A stretch of 48,337 bases of DNA from Chloroflexota bacterium (GTDB taxonomy: Bacteria > Chloroflexota > Limnocylindria > Limnocylindrales > CSP1-4): positions 1 to 48,337 of the forward strand of contig JADMIG010000020.1 in assembly GCA_015478725.1 (NCBI GenBank), in the 5' to 3' direction. Numbering within the stretch: the first letter of the stretch is position 1; the number at the start of each line of letters is the position of its first letter. The translations under genes were made by a program, and so were the position numbers. Shown here one piece after another: positions 31,221-46,204 of this stretch. Under the pieces are notes generated by a model that searched no databases, was not told the DNA's origin, and saw only the letters and a list, made by a program, of their open reading frames with translations.

Positions 31221-32048
31221 TCAAGATGAAGAAGTGGGGGCTGAAGGGCGGGGCGTAGTTGCGACGCCATCGAGAAGCTGTTCATCGTGCGTGTGAACCG
31301 ATGCATGCCCTTCCGGGTCCAGCTCGTCGAAGTAGGCCGCGACCCGCTCACGCGCCTCTTCGACGTGGGCCTCGAGCCGCCTGGATGCGAACTCAGGATC
31401 CCCGGTCTCGATCGCCTCGAGCAGTGCCTGGTGCTGGTCGGCGCTCGTTGCGAGCATCGGGTACGGAAGCTCATCGAAGTCGAGCAGCGTCTGGATCGCA
31501 GGAACATGTCGGACGAAGATCGCATGCAATCGGCGGTTCCCGCTTAGGGCGCATAGCCTTTCGTGGAATTGCAGATCGGCGCGGCGAACCGCCGGCACAT
31601 CGGCGGTCAGTGCGGCGGTGCGAATCTCATCGACCGCGGCGCGAAGCTCCGCGACAGCCATGCGATCTCCACGAGTGGCCAGCAGGCGAGCAGCACGGCC
31701 CTCGATGGCAGCGCGGACATCGTAGATCTCGCGCACGTCGTTCCGGTTGAGGGTGACGACGAAAGCCCCCCGTCGCGGTTCCTCTTCGATGAGACCCTCG
31801 CCGACCAGAGTCTTGAACGCCTCGCGGACCGTGCCTCGACTTACTCCGAGTCGGGAGGCGAGCTTCGCCTCGATCAGATGGGTGCCGCGCCGAATGCTGC
31901 CAGAAAGGATCTGTTCGCGAAGGATGGCCGAGGCATCCTCGGCCAGCTTCCTCGGCGCCGCAAGAGGCGATAGATCCGGGAGGCCATAGTCTTCATCGCG
32001 CGGTGTCCTCCCGTCGCTGCCGCTGTAGGACGCGTCTCTGATCGGCAT
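31221..32048 (-). CDS. GntR-family regulator, FadR subfamily (FCD domain)
   Basis: 275 residues. The N-terminal winged helix (about 33-100) includes REQILSGSIRRGTHLIEAKLASRLGVSRGTVREAFKTL (in parts) and GLIEEEPRRGAFVV. The C-terminal FCD domain has the expected metal-binding positions in DLQFHERLCALSGNRRL, DQHQALLEAIETGD and RLEAHVEEA. FCD regulators sense small carboxylates, sugar acids or metal-bound ligands. The palindrome GGTNGACNGTCNACC lies in its own promoter (32134-32148) and before three other island units, so it is the likely regulator of the island. ATG at 32048, about 85 nt after the predicted start of transcription. The last 15 residues are low-complexity. Confidence 0.92.
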   Translation of the reverse strand: MPIRDASYSGSDGRTPRDEDYGLPDLSPLAAPRKLAEDASAILREQILSGSIRRGTHLIEAKLASRLGVSRGTVREAFKTLVGEGLIEEEPRRGAFVVTLNRNDVREIYDVRAAIEGRAARLLATRGDRMAVAELRAAVDEIRTAALTADVPAVRRADLQFHERLCALSGNRRLHAIFVRHVPAIQTLLDFDELPYPMLATSADQHQALLEAIETGDPEFASRRLEAHVEEARERVAAYFDELDPEGHASVHTHDEQLLDGVATTPRPSAPTSSS

Positions 32049-32133
32049 CGGTTCTCGGTTCCCCTACCTCGGCGCCGTCGGGCTCACTCGACGTCTCGGG
32101 TCGGGTGGCAGTGGGCGTGCTGTCGCCCAGGTC

Positions 32134-32148
32134 GGTCGACAGTCTACC
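32134..32148 (-). promoter_or_regulatory. Island operator A, before the GntR gene
   Basis: Minus strand GGTAGACTGTCGACC, a perfect match to GGTNGACNGTCNACC. It contains TAGACT, which with the upstream TG forms an extended -10 (32149-32141). A repressor bound here would block the regulator's own promoter. Confidence 0.7.
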
Positions 32149-32445
32149 ATCCGGTAGCGCCCGGTTAACAGCACCCTTTCGATTTCATGAACAACGGATG
32201 TCACATGGTCCAGAACGTTGTCGCCGTGTGCGGATCTAACGACGGAAGACGCAGACGCTGGCGCTCGACAGCGGCGATCAGTCGCGAGTCGGCGTGACCC
32301 GTGCTCACGCCCCAGAGATGGTTGACGAGGTCGGTCAGCTGCGGCGTCGCGACTCGCGCATGCACGCCCGCACCCACCGGCAATCAGGACCGCATCGAGG
32401 TCGCCCTGCGAGTGCGCCGCTCGCGATCCGGTCGGGTTCGTCGAT

Positions 32446-32460
32446 GGTACACTGTCGACC
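32446..32460 (+). promoter_or_regulatory. Island operator B, before the PHP operon
   Basis: GGTACACTGTCGACC, one mismatch from the palindrome GGTNGACNGTCNACC. It contains TACACT as part of an extended -10 TGGTACACT (32445-32453). Transcription would start near 32460, some 29 nt before the GTG of the PHP gene. Confidence 0.68.
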
Positions 32461-32488
32461 GTTGACTGACCCTTCGACCTCACACGGC

Positions 32489-33904
32489 GTGACCCACATC
32501 CGGCTCCGGGGTCGGCTGACCCGCGCCGACCGCCAGCAGGACCATTACACGCTCCTCGCGTTCGACGTCCGACCCGGCGTCGCCGCAATCCGGGTGACCC
32601 TCGATCACGATCCACCTGGAGACGCCGAGGATCCGACCCACGGGGCAGTCCTCGACCTCGGCCTGATCGGTCCGCCCCCGGAAGGCCTCGGGCCGCCGCC
32701 TTTCCGCGGCTGGAGCGGGAGCGAACGGCGGACGATCGTAGTTGGCAAACGCTGGGCAACGCCCGGCTACCGGCCCGGGCCGATCGAAGCGGGTCGTTGG
32801 CACGTCGTTCTCGGCCTCTATGGGATCCCGGTCGGCGGGTGCGAATACCGCGTCGACGTGGAGTTGCTCGACCTTGAATCGGCGGACCGAAGTGGCGCTC
32901 GCCTCGCACCAGACCCTAGCGTGGTTGAACCGACCGCGGCCACCGCGCACCGGCTTCCATCGAGGTCCAAGGTTCCACGCTGGATCGCCTGCGACCTGCA
33001 TGCGCATTCGCTCCACAGCGACGGCGCGGAGGAGATCGCGACGGTGGCTGCGATCGCTCGGCTTGCCGGCCTCGAGGTCCTGTTCATCACGGACCACAAC
33101 ACGGACAGTCATGTCGCGGAGCTCGAGGCGTGCAGTGCCGCCGCTGGGCTCGTCCTGCTTGCGGGCGAGGAAGTAACGACCTACGGCGGCCACTTCAACG
33201 CACTCGGGATCCGCGGCTGGGTGGAGTTCCGACACACCAGCGCGGACCAAGTCCGCTCCTCCATCGACGCGATCCACGCTCAAGGTGGCTTGGCCTCGGT
33301 CAATCACCCCGAGAGTCGCGGTAGTCCGTGGACGTACGGGCCAGAACTTCCGTTCGATCTCGTCGAGGTCTGGAATGGACCGTGGCGCTCGGAGAACGCC
33401 GCCGCGCTCGAGTGGTGGGTGGTGCTCCTCGGTTCCGGGCGGCGGGTCACGGCCGTCGGCGGAAGCGACATGCACTCGACCGACCGACGGGGCCAGCCGG
33501 TCGGAACGCCGATCACCTGGGTCCTGGCCACAGCGACTGGTCGGGATGCGGTCCTGGACGGCCTGCGAGAGGGCCGGGTCATCGTTACCCGAGACGCGTC
33601 GGTCGCCCTTCCTGCCCTGCGGGTCATCGACCGGTCGGGGCAGGGCGCCGACATCGGGGCGACGCTCCCGGTCCGCAGCCCCATCGACGTGGTGTGGCAA
33701 GCCGACCACCAGGCCGGCCGGCGGCTCGAGATCCTGTCCCGCAGGGGTCAGGTCCTGAGCGCGGATCTTGGCTCCGATCGGGCGGCCGGTAGGGTCCGGC
33801 TCGACCGGCGAGCGGCGCTGGCGTCTGGCCATGTGCGGATCGAGATCCGCGACGATGAGGGCCCAATCGCATTCACTAATCCTGTCTTCCTGGAGGAATC
33901 CTGA
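32489..33904 (+). CDS. PHP-domain metallohydrolase (CehA/McbA type)
   Basis: 471 residues. Residues 1-160 are a beta-rich domain of unknown role. From 165 on is a PHP domain of the CehA/McbA group: DLHAHSLHSDGAEEI (His171, His173, Asp178), FITDHNTDSHV (Asp202, His203), GEEVTTYGGHFNALG, VNHPES and GGSDMHSTDR, giving a complete set of likely metal ligands. PHP proteins hydrolyse phosphoesters or other esters. Starts at GTG 32489, downstream of operator B, without a visible Shine-Dalgarno; TTG 32462 is an alternative. First of five coupled genes; its stop overlaps the next ATG by one base. Confidence 0.85.
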   Translation: MTHIRLRGRLTRADRQQDHYTLLAFDVRPGVAAIRVTLDHDPPGDAEDPTHGAVLDLGLIGPPPEGLGPPPFRGWSGSERRTIVVGKRWATPGYRPGPIEAGRWHVVLGLYGIPVGGCEYRVDVELLDLESADRSGARLAPDPSVVEPTAATAHRLPSRSKVPRWIACDLHAHSLHSDGAEEIATVAAIARLAGLEVLFITDHNTDSHVAELEACSAAAGLVLLAGEEVTTYGGHFNALGIRGWVEFRHTSADQVRSSIDAIHAQGGLASVNHPESRGSPWTYGPELPFDLVEVWNGPWRSENAAALEWWVVLLGSGRRVTAVGGSDMHSTDRRGQPVGTPITWVLATATGRDAVLDGLREGRVIVTRDASVALPALRVIDRSGQGADIGATLPVRSPIDVVWQADHQAGRRLEILSRRGQVLSADLGSDRAAGRVRLDRRAALASGHVRIEIRDDEGPIAFTNPVFLEES

Positions 33905-34887
33905 TGTCGATCGAGACAGGCGTCGCCTATTTCGACGCCCGCGCCAAGCGTCACTGGGAGCGGGATCTCGACGACATGGCGGCGACTGGGTTCAGCTACG
34001 TCGTCCACTGCGTCTCCGAGTTCGACCTGCGCTGGCAGAAAGAGTCCGTGCGCCGACTTGTCGCCGCCACGAAAGAGCGCGGGATGGGAGTATGGCTCGA
34101 CCCATGGGGTGTCGGCGAGGTCTTCGGAGGCGAACCGTTCAGCCGGTTTGGCGCGTTCCACCCGGAGGCTCGACAGATCCGCTCCGACGGCGCGGCGACG
34201 AGCCACGCTTGCCTGAATCAACCGGTATTCCGTGACTTCGTTCGCGCCTGGGTGGATGACGTCGCCGACCTCGGCGGAGACGTCATCTTCTGGGACGAAC
34301 CGACCTGGAGCATCGACGGGGTGACCGGGAACTGGTGCTGTCGGTGCGACCGATGCCGGGCCCTGTTCCAGGATCGGACCGGGGCCGAGCTGCCGGTAGA
34401 GTTGACCCCCGAGGTCCGCGAGTTCCACGAATGGTCGATGGCTGAGCTCCTGAGCGCCTCCTGCGAGTACGCCCGGTCGCGCGGCTTCCGCAACGCGATC
34501 TGTATCATGCCTCCCGAAGCCTCGAACCCGGGCTTCACCGACTGGGACGTGGCAGCGTCGATCCGCGGGCTCGACATCTTCGGGACCGATCCGTACTGGT
34601 ACTCGTTCCGGGGCGATGCCGCCGAATACGTCGCCCGGCATGCTCGACAGACCGTCGAGGTCGCCGAGCGGCACGGCCTCGACCATCACGTCTGGATCCA
34701 GGCGTTCGAGGTGCCGAGCGGCCGCGAAGAGGAGATCGCGATCGCTGTCGATGCCGCAGTCGGTGCGGGTGCCCGCAACCTTGCGGTCTGGTCGTACGAC
34801 GGGTGCTCCGCCATGTCCACCTGCGAGTGCGAACGCCCGGAGCTCGCCTGGGACGTTGTGCGGCGCTCGTTTCGCGGCCTGCGATGA
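33904..34887 (+). CDS. TIM-barrel protein, putative glycoside-hydrolase-like enzyme
   Basis: 327 residues I can place only by fold. Strand-like segments GFSYVVHCVSEFD, MGVWLDPWGVGEVFGG, DVIFWDEPTWS, LDIFGTDPYWYS and VWIQAFEVP, each ending in acidic or aromatic residues, look like the active-site strands of a barrel hydrolase. WDEPTW is a good acid/base candidate. A cysteine cluster, CCRCDRCRALF (about 146-156), resembles the zinc knuckle of some glycoside hydrolases. There is no signal peptide, so it is cytoplasmic. ATG at 33904 overlaps the PHP stop (TGATG); its end overlaps the GNAT start (ATGA). Substrate unknown. Confidence 0.72.
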   Translation: MSIETGVAYFDARAKRHWERDLDDMAATGFSYVVHCVSEFDLRWQKESVRRLVAATKERGMGVWLDPWGVGEVFGGEPFSRFGAFHPEARQIRSDGAATSHACLNQPVFRDFVRAWVDDVADLGGDVIFWDEPTWSIDGVTGNWCCRCDRCRALFQDRTGAELPVELTPEVREFHEWSMAELLSASCEYARSRGFRNAICIMPPEASNPGFTDWDVAASIRGLDIFGTDPYWYSFRGDAAEYVARHARQTVEVAERHGLDHHVWIQAFEVPSGREEEIAIAVDAAVGAGARNLAVWSYDGCSAMSTCECERPELAWDVVRRSFRGLR

Positions 34888-35894
34888 CCGCGATCCGGCT
34901 CCGGCCCTACTCGGCGGCTGCCGCGCCGCACATCGTCGCCTTGTGGGGCTTGGCCGTCGGCGATCCCTTCCCGCTCCGGGAGCCCGTCCTGCGCCAGTGC
35001 CTCGAGGGCAACCCGAGCGCTCGACTCGAAGACGCCGTGCTCGCCTGGGAGGGAGATCGACTTATCGGCTTCGGGTACGCCGGTCTCCACCGCCTGGCGG
35101 ACCAGGAAACATCGGGTTTCCGCGCCCGCGGTCAGATCCACGCCGTCGTGGTCGATCCCGCTCGTCGTCGCCGCGGCATCGGACGGCGGATCGCGGGCGC
35201 GCTCGGGAAGCAGATAGCGGCCAACGGGGTCGACGTGGTCGAGGCGTCCGGCGGGATGTTCTACCTCTGGCCGGGTATCCCCGAGGATCTGCCCGGAGCG
35301 CTCGAGTTCGCCTCGGCCGTCGGCTTCGAGCTCGGCGACCGGTCGTGGGATCTGCGTGGGGACGTGACCGATCTGCGGATCGACCCAACGGCGAAGGACG
35401 TCCTCCAGGCGGCCGGTGCGGCGGTCGCGCCGGCAACCACCGACGATCGCGCCGCCATGCTCGGCTTCCTGTTCGCCGAGTTCGGCGGAGAGTGGTGGCA
35501 CGAAACCCGCTGGTTCCTCGACCAGGGCGGCGACCCCACGGAACTGCTCCTCCTGCGCCAGACCGGTGGCCGGATCGTCGGGTTAGCCAGGATCCACGGC
35601 CCGGCGACGCGACCGATCGGGCCGCCCCATTTCTGGGCGGCCCGGCGCCCACTCAGGGCCGGCGGACTCGGGCCGATCGGGGTCGCGGCGGAGCTCCGTG
35701 GCCGTGGCCTTGGCCGCGCGCTGCTCGTGGCCGCCCTCGACGCGCTCCGTCGCCGCGGCCTGACCGACGTGGTGATCGACTTCACGTCCCTCCTCGGGTA
35801 CTACGGTCCCCATGGCTTCAGGCCGTGGATCTCCTACCGCCATGCCCTCGCTCCGGTCGGACGGTTGGGCGGGTCAGGTTCCTCCGACCGATAG
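34884..35894 (+). CDS. Tandem GNAT-family acetyltransferase
   Basis: 336 residues with two GNAT folds. The first carries the acetyl-CoA pyrophosphate loop in IHAVVVDPARRRRGIGRRI (about 86-104). The second carries GVAAELRGRGLGRALLVAALDAL (in parts), followed by the C-terminal DFTSLLGYYGPHGFRP block. GNAT enzymes acetylate amines on sugars, amino acids or proteins. It is coupled to the barrel gene by an ATGA overlap and lies 14 bp before the SIS gene. An acetyltransferase next to an M20 deacylase suggests an N-acyl intermediate, which is inference. Confidence 0.85.
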   Translation: MTAIRLRPYSAAAAPHIVALWGLAVGDPFPLREPVLRQCLEGNPSARLEDAVLAWEGDRLIGFGYAGLHRLADQETSGFRARGQIHAVVVDPARRRRGIGRRIAGALGKQIAANGVDVVEASGGMFYLWPGIPEDLPGALEFASAVGFELGDRSWDLRGDVTDLRIDPTAKDVLQAAGAAVAPATTDDRAAMLGFLFAEFGGEWWHETRWFLDQGGDPTELLLLRQTGGRIVGLARIHGPATRPIGPPHFWAARRPLRAGGLGPIGVAAELRGRGLGRALLVAALDALRRRGLTDVVIDFTSLLGYYGPHGFRPWISYRHALAPVGRLGGSGSSDR

Positions 35895-35908
35895 AGGGAG
35901 GCGATCAC

Positions 35909-36646
35909 GTGACGGCTGCGGCGGCGTACCTGCGCCGGACGATCGAGGTTCTCGAGGTGATGGCCCGCGACGAGGAGGCCCAGATCGAGGCGGCGTCGGC
36001 CCGCGTCGCCGAGGCGATCAGCAGAGGTCGGCGCGTCTATGTCGCTGCCACCAGCCACGTCCTTCACACCGAGCTCTACCTGCGTGCTGGTGGCATGGCC
36101 GCAGTCCATCCGCTGGGCGAGACACCCGACCTCGCCCGGCCGATGCTTGACCTCGGCGCCGGCGTCCTTCGCGGCGACGGGCCGTTCGTCCCCGAGCCCG
36201 GGGACGTCGTGCTGGTCGGGACGAATGCCGGAACGGACGCGGGAACCGTCCAGGTGGCGCTTGCGGCGAAGCAGGCCGGCTGCACGGTCGTCGGACTGAC
36301 TTGCGTCGCATACGAGCGCTGGCCCAAGGTGGTCGTCGAGCACCCGAGCGGGGCAAAACTGGTCGACCTGGCCGATATCCTCATCGACATCGGCGGGGTG
36401 GTCGGTGACGGGATCGTTGACCTGCCCGGCCTCGACACGGCCGTGGGACCTACCTCCGGGGTGGTTCTGTGCGCGGCCGCCTGGGCGATCCTCGTGGGCG
36501 CGGCGGAGCGACTGCTCGCCATCGGCTTGACGCCGATCGTCTATCGAAGCGTCCAGCTCCCGGGCGGCGAGGCCCTGTTCTACGAGCGGAAAGCCACCTA
36601 CGAGGAGACGCGGCGCGGCGTCGTGGAAGCCGGTGCGACCGGATGA
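35909..36646 (+). CDS. SIS-domain sugar isomerase-like protein (UPF0309 type)
   Basis: 245 residues. SIS domains bind phosphosugars and catalyse aldose-ketose isomerisation. The pattern matches the UPF0309 group: RRVYVAATSHVLHTELYLRAGGMAAVHPL (in parts), VVLVGTNAGTDAGTVQVALAA, the conserved HPSGAKLVDLADILID, GDGIVDLPGLDTAVGPTSGVV, and a C-terminal QLPGGEA. GTG at 35909 has GGGAGG 7 bp upstream, the strongest ribosome-binding site in this operon. It overlaps the M20 gene by 4 bp. The exact sugar phosphate is unknown. Confidence 0.84.
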   Translation: MTAAAAYLRRTIEVLEVMARDEEAQIEAASARVAEAISRGRRVYVAATSHVLHTELYLRAGGMAAVHPLGETPDLARPMLDLGAGVLRGDGPFVPEPGDVVLVGTNAGTDAGTVQVALAAKQAGCTVVGLTCVAYERWPKVVVEHPSGAKLVDLADILIDIGGVVGDGIVDLPGLDTAVGPTSGVVLCAAAWAILVGAAERLLAIGLTPIVYRSVQLPGGEALFYERKATYEETRRGVVEAGATG

Positions 36647-37914
36647 GCGAGCGCCCTCGGGAGGGCCCAAGGGCTGCGGCCGGGCGTGAGGTCGGCACCG
36701 TGGGGCGACTTCTGCGTCGGCTCGAGCGTGCCGGGCCGGCGATCATCGACCTAGCGGCGAGGTTGGTCGCGATTCCGTCCGACAGTCCCGCCCACGACGA
36801 GAGCGCCGTCGCTGAGGCGCTCGGGGCGGAGGCGGCACGGCTGGGCCTCGCGGCCGGCGAGATCGTGACCGCCCGCCCGAATCGCCCGAATTTGGTAATC
36901 CGGATGCCCGGCCAGGCTGCGGGCTTGCGCCTGATTTTGAACGGCCACATGGACACGAAGCCGGCCGGCGAGCGGGCGGACTGGCGACGCGATCCCACCA
37001 CCGCCGAGGTGAGTGACGGCCGGCTCCACGGCCTCGGCGCAGCCGACATGAAGGGCGCCCTCGCGGCGATGCTCCACGCGGCCGCCGCGCTCGGCGCCGA
37101 GGGCCTTCCGGTGCGCGGCGAGCTCGTCCTCGTCTTTTCCGCGGACGAGGAGGCCTCCGGGACGTTGGGGCTTTCCCACGTCCTTGCGACGACCGGGCTC
37201 ACTGCCGACGCGGCGTTGATCGGCGAGCCGTCCGGGATCGATGGACCGTTCGACCGGTTGGCGATCGGCGCCCGCGGCTTTCACGGATTCACGCTCCGCG
37301 CAACCGGTCGCCGACTCCACTCCGGGCTGGCCGGGACGGCGGCCGCCTCGCCGGATGCCATCCGGGCCATTGCCCGCGCCGTCGATCGGCTGCCGGCGGC
37401 GGTCGATTTCGGGCAGCCACGCACCGCGGGAATCTGGCTGGGACCCGATCTTGCCATCACCGGTCTTGCCGCGGGGATCTCGCCGGGGATGCTCCCGGGC
37501 GAGGCAGTCGCCCGAGGCGAGGTGCGGACGATCCTCGGCATGACTCGCCAGGCTACGGATCGCGCCCTCCGCGAGGCCCTGGCCCGAATCCCGGGCGTCG
37601 ACGGGGGACTGCTTGGGGTGGAGCTTGAGTCCGAGTCGGAGGACTGGCCGGCCAGCGCCATCGACCCGACCGAGCCGATCGTCGGCGCGCTCGCTGGGGC
37701 GACCGCACGGGTAATCGGTCGCGCGCCCGATCTGTCGGTCTTCCCAGGTGCGACGGAGGCGCACCTGTTCGCCGCCCGCGGAATCCCGTGCGTGCCTGCG
37801 TTCGGGCCCGGCCGGCTGGCGGCGGCGCACGTCCCGGACGAGTCCATCGCGATCGAGGACCTCATCGCGGCCGCCCAGATCTACGCGCTGGCGATCGCCG
37901 ATTATCTTGCCTGA
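36643..37914 (+). CDS. M20-family metallopeptidase/deacylase
   Basis: 423-residue di-zinc amidohydrolase of the ArgE/DapE/CPG2 family. Ligands: His102 and Asp104 in LNGHMDTKP, Asp135 in GLGAADMKG, Glu169-Glu170 in SADEEASGT, Glu195 in LIGEPSG and a C-terminal His in AAHVPDES. LHSGLAG marks the lid/dimerisation domain. The family removes N-acyl groups or cleaves dipeptides; given arginine synthesis through ArgJ, this is unlikely to be ArgE. Final gene of the PHP operon, starting in an ATGA overlap and ending in a 13-bp convergent overlap with the Gfo/Idh gene. Confidence 0.88.
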   Translation: MSERPREGPRAAAGREVGTVGRLLRRLERAGPAIIDLAARLVAIPSDSPAHDESAVAEALGAEAARLGLAAGEIVTARPNRPNLVIRMPGQAAGLRLILNGHMDTKPAGERADWRRDPTTAEVSDGRLHGLGAADMKGALAAMLHAAAALGAEGLPVRGELVLVFSADEEASGTLGLSHVLATTGLTADAALIGEPSGIDGPFDRLAIGARGFHGFTLRATGRRLHSGLAGTAAASPDAIRAIARAVDRLPAAVDFGQPRTAGIWLGPDLAITGLAAGISPGMLPGEAVARGEVRTILGMTRQATDRALREALARIPGVDGGLLGVELESESEDWPASAIDPTEPIVGALAGATARVIGRAPDLSVFPGATEAHLFAARGIPCVPAFGPGRLAAAHVPDESIAIEDLIAAAQIYALAIADYLA

Positions 37915-38951
37915 GAACGACGTGCCGGCTCCGGAAAGAGTTCGTCCACAGCGACCGGACGCCCACGTCGCTCCGACTCGTAGATTGCCCCGACCACGGC
38001 GATACCGCGCCGGCCTTCGGCAGCCCCGACGATCGGCGGACGACGTTCCAGGATGGCGTCGATGAACTCGCGGATCTCCCGGCCCATCTCCCCCCGATCA
38101 GTCCCGGCGATGATCGTCGTGCCCTCGCCTGCGATGTCGACGGTCAGCTCATGCCAGGTCCGGTACCGGATCGTGCCGCGCGAGCCGTGAACCTCGATCT
38201 CACACCGTCCCGGCATCGGAACCTGCTCGGAATCGCGGTGGATCGGATAGGTCGCCTCGTTGACGAAGAGCGCAGCGATTGCCCCGCTGGCGAACGTCAG
38301 GACAGCCACACCGCCGTCCTCGACCCCGACGATACCCCGAGCATAGGTGGTCGTCCGACCGTAGACCTCGATGATCGGGCTCCCGATCAGCCATGCCAGC
38401 CGGTCGACGAGGTGGACCGCGTCGTGGATCAGTTCGCCGCCCCCGGACAGTTCGCGATCGTAGTACCACGCGGGCCAAGGGCTGTGCTCCCCGAAGGTGA
38501 AGACGTCCTGGGCTAGCATCGGCGTTCCCAGGCGACCCTCGTCGATCAGGCGCTTGGCCACGAGGAGCTCGGCATGGAAGCGGTGGGTGAAGGCGAGCAT
38601 CAACGTAATCCCGGCTCTTCTGCAGGCAGCCTCGATCGCGTCGCAATCGGCAACGTTTGTGGCCATCGGCTTCTCGAGGAGGACGTGGACGCCGGCGCCC
38701 GCGGCTGCCTCCACGAATGGACGGTGGAGGGCCGTCGGCGTGCAGACGCTCAGAGCGTCCGGCCGCTCGCGCCGGAGCAGCTCTGCGAGGTCCGCGTACG
38801 GTCGCGCGCCGAACCGATCGGCGACAGCTGCGGTCCGCTCGGCGTCGCGTCCGACGAAAGCCACGATCTCGGCATCTGGTTGGGCCGCGTAGGCGACGGC
38901 GTGATCGACCCCGATGAAGCCGCCGCCAGCGATCGCGACACGGAGGGTCAT
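37902..38951 (-). CDS. Gfo/Idh/MocA-family oxidoreductase
   Basis: 349-residue NAD(P)-dependent sugar or cyclitol dehydrogenase. N-terminal Rossmann domain VAIAGGGFIGVDHAVAY, VCTPTALHRPFV and the diagnostic VLLEKPMATN; the C-terminal domain has GGGELIHDAVHLVDRLAWL (in parts) with the conserved Asp-x-x-x-His of the family. Members include inositol 2-dehydrogenase, which would fit an inositol-phosphate pathway, but substrate cannot be assigned by sequence. The ATG at 38951 overlaps the aminotransferase stop (ATGA). Last gene of the MBL operon. Confidence 0.9.
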   Translation of the reverse strand: MTLRVAIAGGGFIGVDHAVAYAAQPDAEIVAFVGRDAERTAAVADRFGARPYADLAELLRRERPDALSVCTPTALHRPFVEAAAGAGVHVLLEKPMATNVADCDAIEAACRRAGITLMLAFTHRFHAELLVAKRLIDEGRLGTPMLAQDVFTFGEHSPWPAWYYDRELSGGGELIHDAVHLVDRLAWLIGSPIIEVYGRTTTYARGIVGVEDGGVAVLTFASGAIAALFVNEATYPIHRDSEQVPMPGRCEIEVHGSRGTIRYRTWHELTVDIAGEGTTIIAGTDRGEMGREIREFIDAILERRPPIVGAAEGRRGIAVVGAIYESERRGRPVAVDELFPEPARRSQAR

Positions 38952-40231
38952 CTCCGGGCGGCGGCTGGCGACCCGGCGGCGACCGCGCTGAGCGAGACGA
39001 GCAGGCGGTCGACCTCCTCGACGGTGTTGTAGTGGGTCAGCCCGACCCGGAGGACGCCGCCCGACGCGAACAATCCGAACCGCTCGATGAGCGCCTGGGC
39101 GTAGAAGTCGCCGTCCCAGGCGGTGATCCCCTGGCCGCCGAGCACCTCCGCAGCCTGGCGTGGCGAGCAGGCGTCGAGCGTCAGCGCGGCAGTCGGGGTC
39201 CGCTCCCCGAGGCGGGCCAGATCGGCGATGCCCCACACACGTATGCCATCGATCCGGGCCAGTCCGGACAGGAGCCTCTCGAACAGGCCCAGCTCGTAGG
39301 TGCGGATCGCGCGCATCCCGGTGTGCGTGTTGAGCCTGCGCCCGGTCCACCCGGAGAACTCCCTGGCGAAGCCATCACCGAACCGCACGCCAACTGAGGC
39401 GATGTACTCCACCGCGGCGAGCGCGCCGGCGATCCCCTCGAAGTTCTGGGTCCCGGTCTCGATCCGGTCGTGGGCCGGCCGGACCTTGTAGGCAGGGAGA
39501 CGGTCGAGTACATCCGCCCTACCGTACGCGACACCGAGGTGCGGACCGAAGAACTTGTAGGTCGAGCAGGCGAGGAAGTCGGTGCCGAGAGCCTGAACGT
39601 CGATCGGCCCGTGGGGCGCATAGTGGACGGCGTCGACGTAGGTTAGAGCGCCGGCCTCGTGGGCGAGGCGGACGAGCTCAGCCACCGGGTTGATCGTCCC
39701 GATCGCATTCGAGGCATAGCCGAAGGCGACCAGCTTCGTCCGAGACGATAGCTTCCTCTGGAAGTCGTCCAGGTCGAGAGTCCCGTCCTCGGGCCGGATG
39801 TCGACCGTTCGGACTGCGAGCCCTCTGTCGGCCGCCATGGCCCGCCACGGCGACACATTCGCCTCGTGATCGAGGGTCGTGACGATCACCTCGTCGCCGG
39901 GCTTGAGAGTCGCCCCGATCGACCGGCTCAGGTGGAACGTGAGGGTCGTCATGTTGTAGCCGAACTTGATCTCCTCAGGGGATGTGGCGTTGAGAAGGTC
40001 CGCGAGCGCTGCGTGCGCCTCGGTGACGATCGCGTCGCTGCGCTGGCTCGTCAGGAAGGCCCCGCCATCGTTCGCGTTCGAGGTCCGGTAGTAACCGACG
40101 ACCGCATCGATCACCCGCTGGGGTACCTGCGTTCCGCCCGGCCCGTCGAAGTAGGCAAGCGCCCGCCCGCCATGCTCGAGGTTCAGCGCGGGAAACTCCC
40201 GCCGGAGCGCGGCGACATCGAAGTCGGTCAT
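38948..40231 (-). CDS. Class V aminotransferase / cysteine-desulfurase-like protein
   Basis: 427-residue PLP enzyme. AYFDGPGGTQVPQRV (27-41) is the opening of the VC1184-like group of cysteine-desulfurase homologues. PLP-binding residues are visible: Asp200 and His203 in YVDAVHYAPH, and Lys226 in STYKFFGPHLG, plus FGYNMTTLTF and ETGTQNFEG. It is not linked to iron-sulphur assembly genes, so it may be a lyase or transaminase for an amino sugar or amino acid. ATG at 40231 overlaps the PNPOx stop (ATGA). Confidence 0.87.
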   Translation of the reverse strand: MTDFDVAALRREFPALNLEHGGRALAYFDGPGGTQVPQRVIDAVVGYYRTSNANDGGAFLTSQRSDAIVTEAHAALADLLNATSPEEIKFGYNMTTLTFHLSRSIGATLKPGDEVIVTTLDHEANVSPWRAMAADRGLAVRTVDIRPEDGTLDLDDFQRKLSSRTKLVAFGYASNAIGTINPVAELVRLAHEAGALTYVDAVHYAPHGPIDVQALGTDFLACSTYKFFGPHLGVAYGRADVLDRLPAYKVRPAHDRIETGTQNFEGIAGALAAVEYIASVGVRFGDGFAREFSGWTGRRLNTHTGMRAIRTYELGLFERLLSGLARIDGIRVWGIADLARLGERTPTAALTLDACSPRQAAEVLGGQGITAWDGDFYAQALIERFGLFASGGVLRVGLTHYNTVEEVDRLLVSLSAVAAGSPAAARR

Positions 40232-40728
40232 GCGTTGAGTCTCCCTGCGTCGGTCTTGGCCGTCTGTTTGTAGCGATCGTGCCACTCTGGCGAGCCCCAT
40301 GCGACGATGCGGACGGGATCGATTCGGATGAGACATCGGGGCCACGCACGAGTGGCTTCGACGTAGGTGAGACCGGCCGGGCCCTCATAGCGCTCGCCCA
40401 TCGCCAGGGCGATCTCGAGCATCCGGCCTGCGAGCGGCCCCGGTCCGTCGACGATCGTCGCGCGGCCGCGAAGCTGGACCCGCAGGTCCGGATCGTCGTC
40501 GGCCACGACCGATAGGCCGACGCGGGCGTCGCGCCGGATGTCTTGGACGAAGCGCGCCTCGGCCCGGGCGACGAGCCATGCCGCCTCGCCGTCCCAATCG
40601 TGCCAGACGGGGACGATCGCTGGGTAGCCGTCCGGGTCGACGGTGGCCAACCGGGCGATGAGCGAGCGCCGGAGGAGCTGGTCGATCTCCGACCGTGCCA
40701 AGGCGCCCGTGCCGTCGGGTCCGGTCAT
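40228..40728 (-). CDS. Pyridoxamine-5'-phosphate-oxidase-like split-barrel protein
   Basis: 166 residues with the FMN/F420-binding split-barrel pattern: LIARLATVDPDGYPAIVPVWHDWDG (in parts), ARFVQDIRRDARVGLSVV, LRVQLRGRATIVDG, and a C-terminal LIRIDPVRIVAWGSPEWHDRY. Such proteins use FMN, F420 or haem. Because the organism makes F420, an F420-dependent reductase is a real possibility. It is coupled by ATGA overlaps to the MBL gene before it and the PLP enzyme after it. Function within the island is unknown. Confidence 0.85.
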   Translation of the reverse strand: MTGPDGTGALARSEIDQLLRRSLIARLATVDPDGYPAIVPVWHDWDGEAAWLVARAEARFVQDIRRDARVGLSVVADDDPDLRVQLRGRATIVDGPGPLAGRMLEIALAMGERYEGPAGLTYVEATRAWPRCLIRIDPVRIVAWGSPEWHDRYKQTAKTDAGRLNA

Positions 40729-41468
40729 GAGATGGACGGCGGAACGGCGAGTCGGGCGATCCGCTCCATGGCGGCCCCGATGTGGCGGGCGGCGTCGGAC
40801 AGAACCGGCGCGAGATGTCCGGCGAGGAGTCGTTCCGGCCGGTGGGTCGCGAGACGCTCGACGCTTCGCAACGTCGACTGCACGTCACAGTCCCACGTGT
40901 CCTGAAGTAGAACCCGTCCTTCCGGGAAGAGCGCGTCCCCGCTGAACGCGGTGACTGCCCCGTCTATCTCAGCGACGAACGCCACATGGCCCTCGGCGTG
41001 GCCCGGAGTGGGAACAACCAGGAAGCGGATCATGCCGAGTTCGACACCTTCCTCCGCGTCAAGCACCAGTTCGACCTCGCACGGCTCGAGGTGATAGTCC
41101 AGCGGATAGAGTCCAGCCACGCGAGCTCGATCTACGCTCGTTGCCACCTCGTCGCCCGCGGCGAGCCAGCCGGCGACCTGTCCGGAGGCACCGACCTGGA
41201 TGCCCGGGATCGCACGCCGCCAAGCGGCCGCCCCGCCAGCGTGGTCCGCGTGCCCGTGGGTCAGCAGGACCCAGCGGATGCCCCCAGGCGCCAGACCGTC
41301 CGCTCGAACCTCGGCGAGGATCCGGTCGACACTCCTGCCCGCGCCAGCATCTACGCATGCGAATCCATCGCCGGTATCGACCAGGTAGACCTGGGAGTCG
41401 ATCGGATCGGTCGTCGCCCAGCCAGTCTCACCGCCGCCGACCAGGTAGATCCGATCTGTCAGTCGCAT
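40725..41468 (-). CDS. Metallo-beta-lactamase-fold hydrolase
   Basis: 247 residues. The di-metal motif is intact: LLTHGHADHAGG (His71, His73, Asp75, His76), VVPTPGHAEGHVAF, FSGDALFPEGR and LLAGHLAPV. The fold includes glyoxalase II, lactonases and phosphodiesterases. ATG at 41468 gives MRLTDRIYLVGGGETG. The predicted promoter puts the transcription start within a base or two of that ATG, so the mRNA may be leaderless. First gene of the MBL-PNPOx-aminotransferase-Gfo/Idh operon, behind operator C. Confidence 0.87.
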   Translation of the reverse strand: MRLTDRIYLVGGGETGWATTDPIDSQVYLVDTGDGFACVDAGAGRSVDRILAEVRADGLAPGGIRWVLLTHGHADHAGGAAAWRRAIPGIQVGASGQVAGWLAAGDEVATSVDRARVAGLYPLDYHLEPCEVELVLDAEEGVELGMIRFLVVPTPGHAEGHVAFVAEIDGAVTAFSGDALFPEGRVLLQDTWDCDVQSTLRSVERLATHRPERLLAGHLAPVLSDAARHIGAAMERIARLAVPPSIS

Positions 41469-41475
41469 CGAGCCA

Positions 41476-41504
41476 ACGCTATGGGCTGATCGGTAGACTG
41501 TCAA
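41476..41504 (-). promoter_or_regulatory. Promoter of the MBL operon
   Basis: Minus strand: perfect -35 TTGACA (41504-41499), 17-bp spacer, -10 TAGCGT (41481-41476). Start near 41469, next to the ATG at 41468. The -35 is inside operator C. Confidence 0.6.
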
Positions 41505-41506
41505 CC
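41492..41506. promoter_or_regulatory. Island operator C, before the MBL operon
   Basis: GGTAGACTGTCAACC on the plus strand, a perfect match to GGTNGACNGTCNACC. On the minus strand it contains the TTGACA -35 of the MBL promoter. Confidence 0.7.
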
Positions 41507-41532
41507 GCCGACCACCTCAACCGCCGACCACC
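41501..41532. repeat. 16-bp tandem repeat at operator C
   Basis: TCAACCGCCGACCACC occurs twice, perfectly, at 41501-41516 and 41517-41532. The first copy starts inside the right half of operator C. It repeats the CAACC end of the operator and may extend protein binding upstream of the MBL promoter. Confidence 0.85.
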
Positions 41533-41548: not shown

Positions 41549-42322
41549 TCAGATGCCAGCCTGTCGTGTCGCTGCACGGACCGCGGCGTCGCGCGCCGCC
41601 ACCGCCAAAGTCGGCAGGTTCGAGTCAACTGCGTCGAGGCCAAGGCTGACGCAGGCCCGGATGGCGACTTCGTCGTCCGCGGTCCCGCCGGCGACCAGGA
41701 GATCTGCCCGGTGAAGTCGCCGGATGAGGTCAGGTTGGCACGATATCCAAGGCATGTTGACCCCTGTGGCGAGTGCGTCGCGGGCCAACGCGACTGGGTC
41801 CGCGTCGGGTGCCCCGCGGCCCACGATCAGGAGACGGGGGATCGTGGGATCAACGCCGGCGGCAGCCTGCAGCTCGACAGCATCGAACGAGCACACAGAG
41901 AGACCGTCCCGGGCTTTGCTGGCTGCGATCGCCCGTGCTATCGCGGCGCCGGTCGCAGATCCCTTCGCCTCGATCGTGGCGCCCAGAGTGCGGTGTGCCT
42001 CGAGCCAGGACAGCAGCTCGGTCAGCGTCGGGATCCGCTCGCCGGCGAAGTCGGGGTCAAACCAGGTGCCCGCGTCGAGCCGAGCGAGCGTGGCTGCGGT
42101 CGCGCTCGCCACCGGGCCACGGCCGTCGGTCGTCCGGTCCAGATGATCGTCGTGGACCACGACCGCCACTCCGTCGCCCGTGAGCTGCACGTCGAGCTCC
42201 ACGTAGTCGACCCCGGCTCGGACCGCGCGCTCGAACCCGGAGAACGTGTTTTCTGGCGCCTCCCCGGCTGCTCCTCGATGGCCCCCCACCCGAAGTCCGG
42301 CCCCGACCGCCCGCCAGTCCAA
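41549..42322 (-). CDS. Glycerophosphodiester phosphodiesterase (canonical)
   Basis: 257-residue GDPD-family TIM barrel that splits glycerophosphodiesters into glycerol 3-phosphate and an alcohol. Catalytic blocks are intact: GGHRGAAGEAPENT, YVELDVQLTGDGVAVVVHDDHLDRTT (in parts), and TIEAKG. No signal peptide is present, so it acts on imported substrates. I start it at TTG 42322, which has AGGAAG 9 bp upstream; TTG 42355 and GTG 42289 are alternatives. It is divergent from a second GDPD gene at 42355, and ends 80 bp before the MBL start. Confidence 0.86.
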   Translation of the reverse strand: MDWRAVGAGLRVGGHRGAAGEAPENTFSGFERAVRAGVDYVELDVQLTGDGVAVVVHDDHLDRTTDGRGPVASATAATLARLDAGTWFDPDFAGERIPTLTELLSWLEAHRTLGATIEAKGSATGAAIARAIAASKARDGLSVCSFDAVELQAAAGVDPTIPRLLIVGRGAPDADPVALARDALATGVNMPWISCQPDLIRRLHRADLLVAGGTADDEVAIRACVSLGLDAVDSNLPTLAVAARDAAVRAATRQAGI

Positions 42323-42354: not shown

Positions 42355-43041
42355 ATGAGACCTGCCAGGCCGATCGCGTTCGCTCACCGGGGCGCCTCGG
42401 GATACGCTCGGGACAACACGCTGGAGGCGTTCGCGCTGGCCCTGCGCCAGGGCGCGACCGGCATCGAGTCGGATGCCTGGCTCAGCGGAGACGGCGTGAC
42501 CGTCCTCGTCCACGACCGGACCATCCGGCCGCCGGGCCGCCGGATCGACGTGACCCGGACCACGGCCGCAGACCTCGCCCGGTGGGGCGTGCCGACGCTC
42601 GCCGAGCTGTACGCTTCGTGCGGGACCGGCTTCGAATTGTCGCTCGACCTCGAACATCGTGAGGTCGCGTTGCCTGTGCTCCGCGCCGCTGAGGCTGCCG
42701 AGGCGGCCGGGAGACTGTGGGTCTGTCACGATGACCTCGACCTGCTGGCCGAGCTGCGGGCGGCCAGTGGGGCTGTCCGGCTCGTCTGTTCCACGCGCCC
42801 CCGCCGAATCCCAGAGGGGGTCGTCGGCCGGATCGACCGGCTCGCCCAACTCGGCATCAACGCCCTAAACATGCATTGGCGAGACTGGTCCGTCGACTGG
42901 GTCGAGTGCTGTCACACCAACGGGATCGCGGCGTTCGGCTGGGACGCACAGGAACCCTCGACGATGGCCCAGCTGCTCGCGTTCGGGATCGACGCCATCT
43001 ACTCGGATTACCCCGATCTTCTCGTAGCAGCGATCGGGTGA
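42355..43041 (+). CDS. Glycerophosphodiester phosphodiesterase, short divergent form
   Basis: 228 residues, shorter than the neighbouring GDPD. It keeps FAHRGASGYARDNTLEAF, GIESDAWLSGDGVTVLVHDRT (in parts) and LSLDLEH, but the usual PENT is RDNT, replacing a metal-binding Glu with Asp. The C-terminal AFGWDAQEPSTMAQLLAFGIDAIYSDYP is typical. Possibly it has a different head-group preference. ATG at 42355 uses the right arm of the shared inverted repeat. Reads alone on the plus strand and converges on the IMPase-family gene. Confidence 0.84.
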   Translation: MRPARPIAFAHRGASGYARDNTLEAFALALRQGATGIESDAWLSGDGVTVLVHDRTIRPPGRRIDVTRTTAADLARWGVPTLAELYASCGTGFELSLDLEHREVALPVLRAAEAAEAAGRLWVCHDDLDLLAELRAASGAVRLVCSTRPRRIPEGVVGRIDRLAQLGINALNMHWRDWSVDWVECCHTNGIAAFGWDAQEPSTMAQLLAFGIDAIYSDYPDLLVAAIG

Positions 43042-43191: not shown

Positions 43192-44031
43192 TCAACGCGA
43201 CTGGGTGGCGTCCCGGATCCACTCCGGTCCGGGCGGTTCCTCCACGAGCAGACGATGCACGGCCGGCATCGCCGCCGCGATTCCGGTGCCTCGCGATGGA
43301 TCAGCCACAACGACCCAGGGTCCCCCTGCCGCGTCGGACACGCGGACGCCGGCCTCGCGGGCGATGAGCCCACCCGCAGCGACATCGACAGCCCCGAGTC
43401 CGGACGCCTGGAAGACGCCGTCCAAGCGCCCGGCGGCGAGGTACGTGAGGCTCAGCGCCGTGCTGCCAAGAGTTCGCACGGCCCGCACGCGAGATCGGAG
43501 GGCGTCCACGCGGTGCGCACCCGCGGGAGTATCGGCGTCGCCAGCGTCGGCGGCCACGACGGCATCCGCAGAGCGTTGGAGCCGGCGAGGACGACACGAC
43601 TCGTGGTTCGGCTCACGCCATGCACCGCGACCCGCCACGGCGGCGAAGGTCTCCTCACGCAGCGGATCGTGAATGACGCCGAGACGGACCTCGCCGTTGC
43701 AGGCGAGGGCGATGCTGATACACCAGAAGGGGATGCCTGAGGCGTAGTTGATGGTGCCGTCAAGCGGATCGACCAACCACGTCCGCCCATTGTCGGGGCC
43801 GCGGCCTGCGATGAAGCCTTGCTCTTCACCGAGGCGATGATCTCGAGGAAAGGCTTGCGCGAGCTGCGCGAAGATGAGCCGCTCGGAGGTCAGGTCCCAC
43901 CGCGTGACGACGTCATGGGGGCCCTTACGGCGGTGCCGCCCAGGAGCCCGGAACCCATCGCGCACCAGGACTCCTGCCATCCGGGCGGCGTCAAGGGCAA
44001 CCCGAAGGTCCTTCTCGGGGTCAGCGGCCAT
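43192..44031 (-). CDS. Inositol-monophosphatase-family phosphatase (island copy)
   Basis: 279 residues. Metal motifs: HDVVTRWDLTSE, LGEEQGF, WLVDPLDGTINYASGIPFWCISIAL (in parts) and GAVDVAAGGLIAREAGV, where the usual Trp before the Asp is Val. Between LGEEQGF and WLVDPLDG is a short Gly/Arg insertion. In this setting the natural reading is removal of phosphate from an inositol or sugar phosphate released by the GDPD enzymes. ATG at 44031 has AGGAG 9 bp upstream. Its promoter (44231-44203) overlaps operator D, shared with the divergent transporter genes. Confidence 0.87.
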   Translation of the reverse strand: MAADPEKDLRVALDAARMAGVLVRDGFRAPGRHRRKGPHDVVTRWDLTSERLIFAQLAQAFPRDHRLGEEQGFIAGRGPDNGRTWLVDPLDGTINYASGIPFWCISIALACNGEVRLGVIHDPLREETFAAVAGRGAWREPNHESCRPRRLQRSADAVVAADAGDADTPAGAHRVDALRSRVRAVRTLGSTALSLTYLAAGRLDGVFQASGLGAVDVAAGGLIAREAGVRVSDAAGGPWVVVADPSRGTGIAAAMPAVHRLLVEEPPGPEWIRDATQSR

Positions 44032-44295: not shown

Positions 44296-45324
44296 ATGGA
44301 TCGTGCCATGAGTCTCAAGCCGCGGTTCTCGCGGGCGCGTCGCGGTGTTGGCGGCCAGCCGGCTGGTAAACAATCGTCACGCCCACTTCCCTCCCGGCGG
44401 CGCCGCATGGGCCGACAGACCCGACGCAACCTTCTTGCTGGCCTGCTGTTCATCTCGCCTTGGCTGCTCGGATTCTTCGGACTCTACGTCTACCCTGCGC
44501 TGGCTTCCCTCTACTACAGCTTCACCGACTTCAAGATCCTGGCCGCCCCGCGCTGGGTCGGACTTGACAACTACCAGGCGATACTGAACGACCCCCTCTT
44601 CTGGAAATCGCTCTACAACACCGCCTACCTGACACTCCTTGGCGTTCCCCTGGCAGTGCTGTGTGCGCTCGTGATCGCCCTCCTCCTCAACGTCAAGAGA
44701 ATCGTCGGTCTGTCGATCTTTCGCACGATCTTCTACCTGCCCGTCGTGCTGCCGACAGTGGCGACGGCAGTCCTTTGGATCTGGCTCCTGAACCCCCAGT
44801 ACGGTCTCGTCGATCAAGCCCTGGTCGCAGTTGGCCTGCCCCAGCCATTCTGGTTCTATGACCCGGACTGGGCCAAGGCGGGGATCATACTGATGACCAT
44901 TTGGGGGGTCGGCGACGTGGTAATCATCTATCTGGGGGCCCTCCAGGGTGTTCCACGTGAGCTGTACGAGTCGGCGGAGGTCGAGGGGGCAGGAATCTGG
45001 GCCAAGGTCCGTCACGTCACGGTGCCCCTGATCAGCCCCGCGATCCTCTTCAATCTGATCACCGGCGCCATCGGAACATTCCAGTATTTCACGCAGGCCT
45101 ACGTCGTGAGTCAAGGCACTGTCGGCACCGGTTTCGCGGCGGTCGGCGGGGTTGGAAACTCACTTCTCTTCTACGGCCTGAATCTCTACAACTACGCGTT
45201 CCGCTACTTCCAGATCGGGTACGCCTCTGCGCTTGCGTGGATCCTCTTGCTCATCATCCTGGCATCGACTCTTGCCCTGCTCTGGGTCTCCAGACGACGC
45301 GTCTACTATGGCGGTGAGCGGTGA
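44296..45324 (+). CDS. Carbohydrate ABC transporter permease (MalF/UgpA type)
   Basis: 342-residue inner-membrane permease with six predicted helices. The cytoplasmic EAA loop, which docks the ATPase, reads YESAEVEGAGIWAKVRHVTVPLISPAI (in parts). The N-terminus is basic (SRRRRMGRQTRR). ATG at 44296 has GGAGG 9 bp upstream; ATG 44287 touches that GGAGG and is unlikely, and ATG 44308 is further away. The family carries sugars, oligosaccharides and glycerol 3-phosphate esters. No ATPase gene is present, so a shared MsmX/UgpC-like ATPase elsewhere is presumed. Confidence 0.92.
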   Translation: MDRAMSLKPRFSRARRGVGGQPAGKQSSRPLPSRRRRMGRQTRRNLLAGLLFISPWLLGFFGLYVYPALASLYYSFTDFKILAAPRWVGLDNYQAILNDPLFWKSLYNTAYLTLLGVPLAVLCALVIALLLNVKRIVGLSIFRTIFYLPVVLPTVATAVLWIWLLNPQYGLVDQALVAVGLPQPFWFYDPDWAKAGIILMTIWGVGDVVIIYLGALQGVPRELYESAEVEGAGIWAKVRHVTVPLISPAILFNLITGAIGTFQYFTQAYVVSQGTVGTGFAAVGGVGNSLLFYGLNLYNYAFRYFQIGYASALAWILLLIILASTLALLWVSRRRVYYGGER

Positions 45325-45331
45325 GCGGACG

Positions 45332-46204
45332 ATGAGGCTGCGAGCCATGACCGCGAACCCCTTCACGCTGCGACTCCGCAAGGACATCAAACTCATGCGG
45401 ATCGCCACGTACGCGGCGTTGGTAGGCCTCAGTTCGCTCTACCTGATGCCGCTGCTATGGATGATTGGGACATCGCTCAAGGCTGGACCGCAGTCCATCG
45501 CCTCGCCTCCGATCTGGATCCCTTCGCCGTTCGTGTGGCAGAACTACCCTGACGCGCTCAGCCAGATCGATTTTCCCCTCGCGCTGCGTAACAGCCTCCT
45601 CTATGCGGTCCCATCCGTGGTGTTTTCGGTGGCTTCGTGCAGCCTCGTGGCGTACGGCTTCGCCCGCATCGCGTGGCCTGGTCGCAACATCGTCTTCGTG
45701 GTGCTCCTTGCCACGATGATGCTTCCAGGACAGGTCACCTTCATTCCGCTCTACGTCATCTTCGCAAAGCTCGGCTGGGTGAACACGTTCCTGCCCCTGG
45801 TCGTGCCAACGCTGTTCGGCAGCCCATTCTTCATCTTTCTGCTGCGTCAGTTCTTCATGGGGATCCCATCTGAGTTGTCCGACGCAGCCCGTATCGATGG
45901 CGCAAGCGAGCTGCAGATCCTCTGGCGGATCGTGCTGCCGCTCTCGAAGCCTGCGCTCATCACGGTCGCGCTCTTCACCTTCATCGACAAATGGGGCGAC
46001 TTCTTCGGGCCCCTCATCTACCTCCAGAGGCCCGATCTATACCCGCTGTCGTTGGCGGTGCAGACGTTCCAGTCCGCTCACAAGACCGACTGGCCACTCT
46101 CCATGGCGGCCGCGGTCGTCATTGCCGCTCCTCTCGTCGTCATCTACTTCTTCGCCCAGCGCCGATTCATCGAGGGCATCACCTTCACAGGTCTGAAAGG
46201 ATGA
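45332..46204 (+). CDS. Carbohydrate ABC transporter permease (MalG/UgpE type)
   Basis: 290-residue partner permease. The EAA-type loop is SDAARIDGASELQILWRIVLPLSKPALI (in parts), and FIEGITFTGLKG is a typical family C-terminus. The start is uncertain among ATG 45308, 45332 and 45347; I give 45332, 7 bp after the previous stop, while 45347 has GAGG 9 bp upstream. Six membrane helices. It pairs with the upstream permease to form the channel. Confidence 0.92.
   Translation: MRLRAMTANPFTLRLRKDIKLMRIATYAALVGLSSLYLMPLLWMIGTSLKAGPQSIASPPIWIPSPFVWQNYPDALSQIDFPLALRNSLLYAVPSVVFSVASCSLVAYGFARIAWPGRNIVFVVLLATMMLPGQVTFIPLYVIFAKLGWVNTFLPLVVPTLFGSPFFIFLLRQFFMGIPSELSDAARIDGASELQILWRIVLPLSKPALITVALFTFIDKWGDFFGPLIYLQRPDLYPLSLAVQTFQSAHKTDWPLSMAAAVVIAAPLVVIYFFAQRRFIEGITFTGLKG

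Follow-up and report, generated by a model that had tools for sequence, protein, structure and literature searches.

On contig JADMIG010000020.1 from a Chloroflexota bacterium (assembly GCA_015478725.1), five open reading frames (ORFs) encode a PHP-fold hydrolase, a TIM-barrel protein, a GNAT acetyltransferase, a SIS-domain protein and an M20 deacylase. The window analysed here is this one whole contig of 48,337 base pairs (bp). A first-pass annotation had described the five ORFs as a translationally coupled unit, and all of them are present on the + strand with the spacing that it gave: PHP and TIM overlap by 1 bp, TIM and GNAT by 4 bp, a gap of 14 bp separates GNAT from SIS, and SIS and M20 again overlap by 4 bp. 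The SIS start codon is GTG, downstream of GAGGGAGG. The five genes are listed below with their identity to homologues in G026 (JADGQI010000019.1), a genome from another genus of the same family.

32489..33904, +: PHP-fold metallohydrolase, CehA/McbA family (NF038032 210.7 bits, cut-off 80; G026 homologue 42%)
33904..34887, +: TIM-barrel protein of an unnamed family, candidate glycoside hydrolase (conserved motifs; G026 homologue 70%)
34884..35894, +: tandem GNAT, homologue of GlmA-type glucosamine/glucosaminide N-acetyltransferases (match to PDB 5KF1; G026 homologue 51%)
35909..36646, +: SIS-domain protein, divergent UPF0309/NF002805 branch (140.8 bits, cut-off 135; G026 homologue 75%)
36643..37914, + (ATG start): M20 metallo-deacylase, accessory to the locus (PF01546; not in the G026 locus)

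Does this spacing imply synthesis in a fixed ratio, as the overlaps had been taken to mean? Among the window's predicted genes, on which we computed the overlap statistics, 18 of 32 same-strand neighbour pairs lie no more than 20 bp apart and nine overlap by exactly 4 bp; the convergent genes for the Gfo/Idh/MocA oxidoreductase (GFO), class-V aminotransferase (AT5), PPOX-class oxidoreductase and metallo-beta-lactamase-fold hydrolase (MBL) are likewise joined by 4-bp overlaps. Because tight spacing is this common, the five-gene arrangement says operon and no more, and fixed-ratio synthesis is not a specific reading of it.

A gene set kept in two genera

A close TIM homologue and a GNAT homologue occur together in one of the 100 related genomes compared, G026. 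There the order PHP-TIM-GNAT-SIS is kept and runs convergent to GFO-AT5-PPOX-MBL, as in the window. Beyond this four-gene core, ten genes are common to both loci: those for the GntR regulator, two permeases, the binding protein, two glycerophosphodiester phosphodiesterases (GDPDs), MBL, PPOX, the class-V aminotransferase and Gfo/Idh. The ABC block and gntR are rearranged in G026, and all 14 genes are still together. The M20 and inositol-monophosphatase genes were not found at the G026 locus, and M20 has no match at E<=1e-40 in the 100 relatives. The conserved unit is PHP-TIM-GNAT-SIS plus ten further genes, not the five genes. The idea that the five belong together, sought as a shared order in other genomes, thus holds for a core of four but not for M20. 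This core is known from two genomes and is not scattered in all relatives. Nor does the unit end at position 37914: the convergent operon and the genes of the ABC transporter are part of it as well. In G026 a GH38 alpha-mannosidase gene (PF01074) is divergent from PHP. The remaining features of the locus are as follows.

31221..32048, -: GntR/FCD-family regulator, probable local repressor (PF00392 and PF07729; homologue 54.5% in G026)
32133..32149, -: operator-like palindrome before gntR (TGGTAGACTGTCGACCG)
32445..32461, +: operator-like palindrome before PHP (27 of 28 bp kept in G026)
37902..38951, -: GFO, Gfo/Idh/MocA oxidoreductase (PF01408; best NCBIfam match IolG, below cut-off; G026 64%)
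38948..40231, -: AT5, class-V pyridoxal-phosphate (PLP) enzyme (TIGR01976 409.7 bits, cut-off 352; G026 69%)
40228..40728, -: PPOX-class oxidoreductase, probably F420-dependent (TIGR03618 79.3 against 79.05 bits; G026 63%)
40725..41468, -: MBL, metallo-beta-lactamase-fold hydrolase (PF00753; G026 62%)
41491..41507, -: operator-like palindrome before the MBL operon (CGGTAGACTGTCAACCG; all 17 bp shared with G026)
41549..42322, -: GDPD1, GDPD family (PF03009; a 48% homologue adjoins gntR in G026)
42355..43041, +: GDPD2, GDPD family (PF03009; G026 53%)
43192..44031, -: inositol-monophosphatase-family phosphatase, IMPase (PF00459; not found in the G026 locus)
44407..45324, +: ABC permease A (PF00528; G026 73%)
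45347..46204, +: ABC permease B (PF00528; G026 70%)
46471..47625, +: ABC solute-binding protein, sugar type (PF01547; G026 75%; best solved match 4R9F, MBP1)
47833..48312, +: IolE-like ORF directly after the binding-protein gene, cut by the contig end (36% over 121 residues to an IolE-like protein)

What holds these operons together? A 17-bp near-palindrome, CGGTWGACWGTCWACCG, stands before PHP, before gntR on the opposite strand and before the MBL operon. The G026 site before PHP differs at a single one of 28 bp within flanks that are otherwise unalignable. In pattern searches of the 3.4-Mb genome, five sites with at most two mismatches were found, three of them in this window; the reversed control pattern gave one. 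The matching palindromes before both convergent operons tie these operons into one regulon, and we consider it very likely that they and the ABC genes are controlled together. The palindrome is a putative binding site of the GntR protein.

Some members of the set also occur in other settings. AT5 homologues (TIGR01976) are widespread, in 81 of 101 genomes, mostly away from this gene set; of ten AT5 neighbourhoods examined, four have an M20 gene (28-31% identical to the window's) within 7 kb. A second inositol-monophosphatase-family gene, at 20586-21419 of the window, is 44% identical to that at 43192-44031. At the start of another contig of the same genome (C18, L089:92-4966), GFO, GH38 and IolE-like genes stand in a row, the GH38 being 52% identical to that of the G026 regulon; no operator-like site was found at this cluster.

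The acetyltransferase and its TIM-barrel neighbour

Residues 16-327 of the GNAT protein align with PDB 5KF1 (E=6.6e-38), the glucosamine N-acetyltransferase GlmA (PMC10936415), and the protein aligns also with the C-terminal region of RmNag (4ZM6). RmNag cleaves the N-acetylglucosamine dimer (GlcNAc)2 without acetyl-CoA, and the glucosamine dimer (GlcN)2 only with it (PMC4680927). Mutation of its Tyr842 abolishes transacetylation, Asp834 is a residue of the GlcNAc pocket, the loop PRFFPGVP is thought to block the inactive N-terminal domain, and the GNAT region has no phosphate pocket (PMC4680927). The window GNAT matches the general-acid Tyr842, the acceptor-pocket Asp834 and the closing loop with Y307, D299 and YLWPGIP, all conserved in G026. 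On this alignment the protein is probably a GlmA-type enzyme, and such homology fits the amino-sugar and acylation idea of the first-pass annotation. A mycothiol-synthase-like function was considered and rejected, as the MshD model scores only 30 bits against full-length GlmA homology. The AlphaFold model of GNAT was not used (predicted local distance difference test, pLDDT, 46). The closest GNAT homologues outside the locus (39%, in G114 and G102) immediately follow a NagZ-type GH3 gene that has the same orientation; directly upstream of GNAT in the window and in G026 is the TIM gene.

Could the TIM protein, then, be the hydrolase that works with GNAT? It belongs to no Pfam family above cut-off and has no NCBIfam match. 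By an alignment-based search, 37 of 400 genomes of the phylum have relatives of it, and tblastn found others, 34-40% identical, on 11 haloarchaeal plasmids. C103, C146, C148, C151, D224, W232 and W264 are kept in all 36 TIM sequences, and E39, D131, E132, P133 and Q266 in 35. In the GH42 enzyme Gal42 the acid/base Glu is followed by CxCxxC, which with an upstream Cys binds zinc, and a second Glu is the nucleophile (PMC8573354). By motif spacing, TIM has a GH42-like acid Glu (E132) and the four-Cys cluster. The strand-7 Glu nucleophile of GH42 is missing; conserved in that area is Gln266, in 35 of 36 sequences. The window protein does not match the GH42 model PF02449, and one distant homologue passes its cut-off (22.0 against 21).

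Substrate-assisted GH20 enzymes use a D-E pair and have no enzymatic nucleophile. TIM has D131-E132 and, from the sequence alignment and a model of modest confidence, no conserved Glu on strand 7; by analogy, a GH20-like substrate-assisted mechanism may apply. Foldseek matches of the AlphaFold model (pLDDT 68), which we use as weak support only, include sugar epimerases, GH20 hexosaminidases, PgaB, GH42 and GH191. An IolE/IolI or xylose-isomerase-like barrel was rejected as no profile matches above cut-off; AP_endonuc_2 (PF01261) gives 18.3 bits where 31.1 are required (E=0.002).

TIM and GNAT meet again far from the Chloroflexota. GNAT homologues (E<=1e-5) occur on four of 72,556 plasmid records, all haloarchaeal (L130-L133), and on all four a TIM homologue lies in the same island. 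These islands, in Haladaptatus and Halorussus, also hold NagZ, DUF1343, anhydro-N-acetylmuramic acid kinase (AnmK), a serine hydrolase, a PIG-L deacetylase and an ABC transporter; three of the four add a peptidoglycan-recognition-family protein, and Halorussus vallis has a partial duplication of the island. From this gene content they look like peptidoglycan scavenging, apparently of bacterial peptidoglycan, the archaea that carry them having none of their own. No homologue of the window's SIS, PHP, GDPD or M20 was detected in the islands, and their class-V aminotransferase was rejected as an orthologue of the window's for want of a tblastn match. Within the Chloroflexota, TIM is present in 17 of 29 genomes with GNAT and in 37 of 400 overall; this co-occurrence is concentrated in a few families. 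In G102 a NagZ-like GH3 gene is near the TIM gene, with two other genes between them. We put the chance that TIM is the hydrolase partner of GNAT at about even.

The SIS, M20 and PHP proteins

The SIS protein passes the cut-off of the UPF0309 sugar isomerase domain model NF002805 (140.8 against 135 bits). Does it also keep the active site? NagS requires His53, Arg64, Glu94 and Asp179 (PMC12680351). The window SIS has Thr48 at the position of His53 and a gap or non-acidic residue at Glu94; with its G026 orthologue it is devoid of the GHS-motif His, the Glu94 position, the SxS phosphate loop (TNAG instead) and Asn228. The His and the Glu are kept in all 20 proteins compared (18 other genome homologues, NagS and 3cvj), and the phosphate-loop Ser in most of them. 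These losses make NagS-like action on sugar phosphates unlikely for the window protein, and NagS itself was ruled out as its identity. This comparison does not support the UPF0309-type sugar-phosphate isomerase step proposed for the locus, and assays with N-acetyl amino-sugar phosphates become less apt. In relatives, ordinary UPF0309 SIS genes form a recurring pair with a GntR/FCD gene that comes after them (L011, L012, L016, L017 and L019).

M20 is a clear member of its family by Pfam and scores 175.4 bits with the ArgE/DapE deacylase model TIGR01910, below the cut-off of 217.6. M20 and GNAT as an obligatory pair were rejected: M20 is absent from G026 and without a close match in the 100 relatives.

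Strong homologues of PHP (E<1e-50) were found at 11 loci in relatives, the window's included. A GDPD gene lies within 10 kb at six of these, in genomes that hold only about 1-4 GDPD genes; since three of the six genomes are of one genus, they amount to four independent cases. In G084, IolE-like, IolG-like and GDPD genes, two permease genes, an ATPase gene and PHP stand in a row. Given the GDPD genes near PHP and the IolE-like genes, the substrate may plausibly include a glycerophosphodiester or inositol part. Other PHP loci in relatives are found with GH38 or an MGH1-like hydrolase. A CehA-type transport operon recurs (L101:1395-10800, L100 and L103) with genes for a binding protein, two permeases, an ATPase, CehA/PHP and an MGH1-like hydrolase, a convergent GH38 and LacI; MGH1-like and LacI were checked in L101 only.

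A candidate pathway, its rivals and known systems

What might such a regulon do? We tentatively favour, at a little under an even chance, the reading that the five genes form part of a larger catabolic regulon, controlled by GntR and fed by the ABC transporter, in which some 14 conserved genes serve the breakdown of a glycoside that contains glucosamine; GNAT would N-acetylate this glycoside and TIM would then cut it. The glycoside probably carries a phosphodiester too. The ABC system would import the compound, and the GDPD and PHP enzymes would open its phosphodiester or ester bonds. GNAT would move the acetyl group of acetyl-CoA to the free amine of the terminal glucosaminide. Hydrolysis of the acetylated residue by TIM would follow: as in GH20, the newly installed 2-acetamido group would be the intramolecular nucleophile, E132 would serve as acid/base and D131 would assist. 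In a locus that has M20, this enzyme would strip an acyl group, acetyl or another, from the product, and Gfo/Idh, MBL, the class-V PLP enzyme and SIS might process the released sugar or aglycone. The N-acyl intermediate, made and removed, of the first-pass annotation is plausible in the light of a GlmA-type GNAT, but M20 is not an obligatory partner; acylation for protection gives way to acetylation that enables cleavage as the likelier purpose. Literature searches found no known system with this gene set.

Several observations weigh against this acetylate-then-cut pathway. The locus is known from two genomes only, and M20 is dispensable in it. TIM has no characterised relative, the confidence of its model is modest, and the top Foldseek match of that model is a sugar epimerase. 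In the Chloroflexota families that have both, the TIM and GNAT genes are far apart; the haloarchaeal islands perhaps represent a single lineage, and their NagZ could be the partner of GNAT there. The GDPD and IolE-like genes, moreover, point to a part of the substrate that the pathway does not need. These last genes suggest a different substrate, namely glycerophosphoinositol or another glycerophosphodiester that contains inositol: GDPD and PHP would split the diester, IMPase would remove the phosphate, and Gfo/Idh and the IolE-like protein would oxidise and dehydrate the inositol. TIM would act as an isomerase or dehydratase of the inosose type, and GNAT and M20 would be side activities. The recurrence of GDPD near PHP, the gene row of G084, the IolE-like ORF and IMPase in the window and the weak match of TIM to AP_endonuc_2 all fit. 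Yet TIM falls below the cut-off of that model and has a Cys cluster and a DEP motif instead, the IolE- and IolG-like matches are below their equivalog cut-offs, half of the GDPD cases come from one genus, and the GlmA homology is left unexplained. Agrocinopine-type catabolism, which combines GDPD, IMPase and ABC genes, was considered as a parallel. We regard the inositol reading as rather unlikely; it could also describe the other half of the same molecule and thus be no true alternative.

Could the genes simply share transcription, with loosely related metabolic roles and no common pathway? Short overlaps are common in the window, M20 and IMPase are not constant, and AT5 is usually found elsewhere; but 14 genes stay together across two genera despite rearrangement, the operons have an operator-like site in common and the TIM-GNAT pairing recurs in haloarchaea, and we hold such an ordinary operon to be improbable. 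The pathway read from the first-pass annotation has a UPF0309-type isomerase convert N-acetyl amino-sugar phosphates, while GNAT adds the acyl group and M20 removes it. It draws on the NF002805 score and on the presence of both enzymes, and is very improbable given a SIS protein without the His and Glu needed in NagS or the usual phosphate-loop serines, the absence of M20 from the G026 locus and the homologous RmNag GNAT region without a phosphate pocket. Slightly less credible still is the detoxification, by acetylation and deacylation, of an imported amino-sugar antibiotic or aminocyclitol: GNAT and MBL folds are common in resistance and several GNAT resistance models match weakly, but they do so over short stretches only, where GlmA matches full-length, and the regulon includes an ABC importer with a binding protein and several catabolic enzymes.

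If the acetylate-then-cut pathway is correct, a conserved family without a Pfam or NCBIfam name, present in Chloroflexota and haloarchaea, is a candidate for a glycoside hydrolase family, and acetylation followed by cleavage on glucosaminides is a definite assay for it. An odd operon would gain a function, and GlmA-type acetyltransferases would be able to partner hydrolases other than GH3. More speculatively, and in our view doubtfully, TIM would found a new glycoside hydrolase family: a GH42-like Cys-cluster barrel which, with its enzymatic nucleophile lost, turned into a substrate-assisted N-acetylhexosaminidase relying on the overlapping GlmA-type gene, paired with it in Chloroflexota and haloarchaea and acting on glucosaminides, possibly glycosyl-inositol-phospholipid head groups or cell-wall fragments. 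The UPF0309 branch with its rebuilt active site warns against calling all such genes sugar-phosphate isomerases.

How does the locus compare with known systems? Like NagS (SCO4393, a GlcNAc-6-phosphate dehydratase) and UPF0309, the window SIS has the SIS fold and keeps Arg64 and Asp179 as R59 and D167, but His53, Glu94, Ser119, Ser121 and Asn228 are not kept. PHP resembles CehA/McbA metallohydrolases in its NF038032 score; unlike theirs, its context, with GDPD and sugar ABC genes nearby, speaks for an ester or phosphoester of natural origin as substrate rather than a carbamate pesticide. With GH42 beta-galactosidases and clan-A-like barrels TIM shares the acid/base Glu after strand 4, CxCxxC and the upstream Cys, and it departs from them in having Asp-Glu instead of Asn-Glu and Gln266 in place of the Glu nucleophile. 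The haloarchaeal islands, like the window, bring TIM and GNAT homologues together with an ABC transporter, and have a deacetylase as well; NagZ, DUF1343, AnmK and a peptide-type transporter set them apart. Like GlmA and RmNag, the window GNAT has tandem GNAT homology over its full length and keeps the catalytic Tyr, the acceptor Asp and the N-terminal-domain loop, whereas its partner gene encodes a TIM-barrel protein and not a GH3 hexosaminidase.

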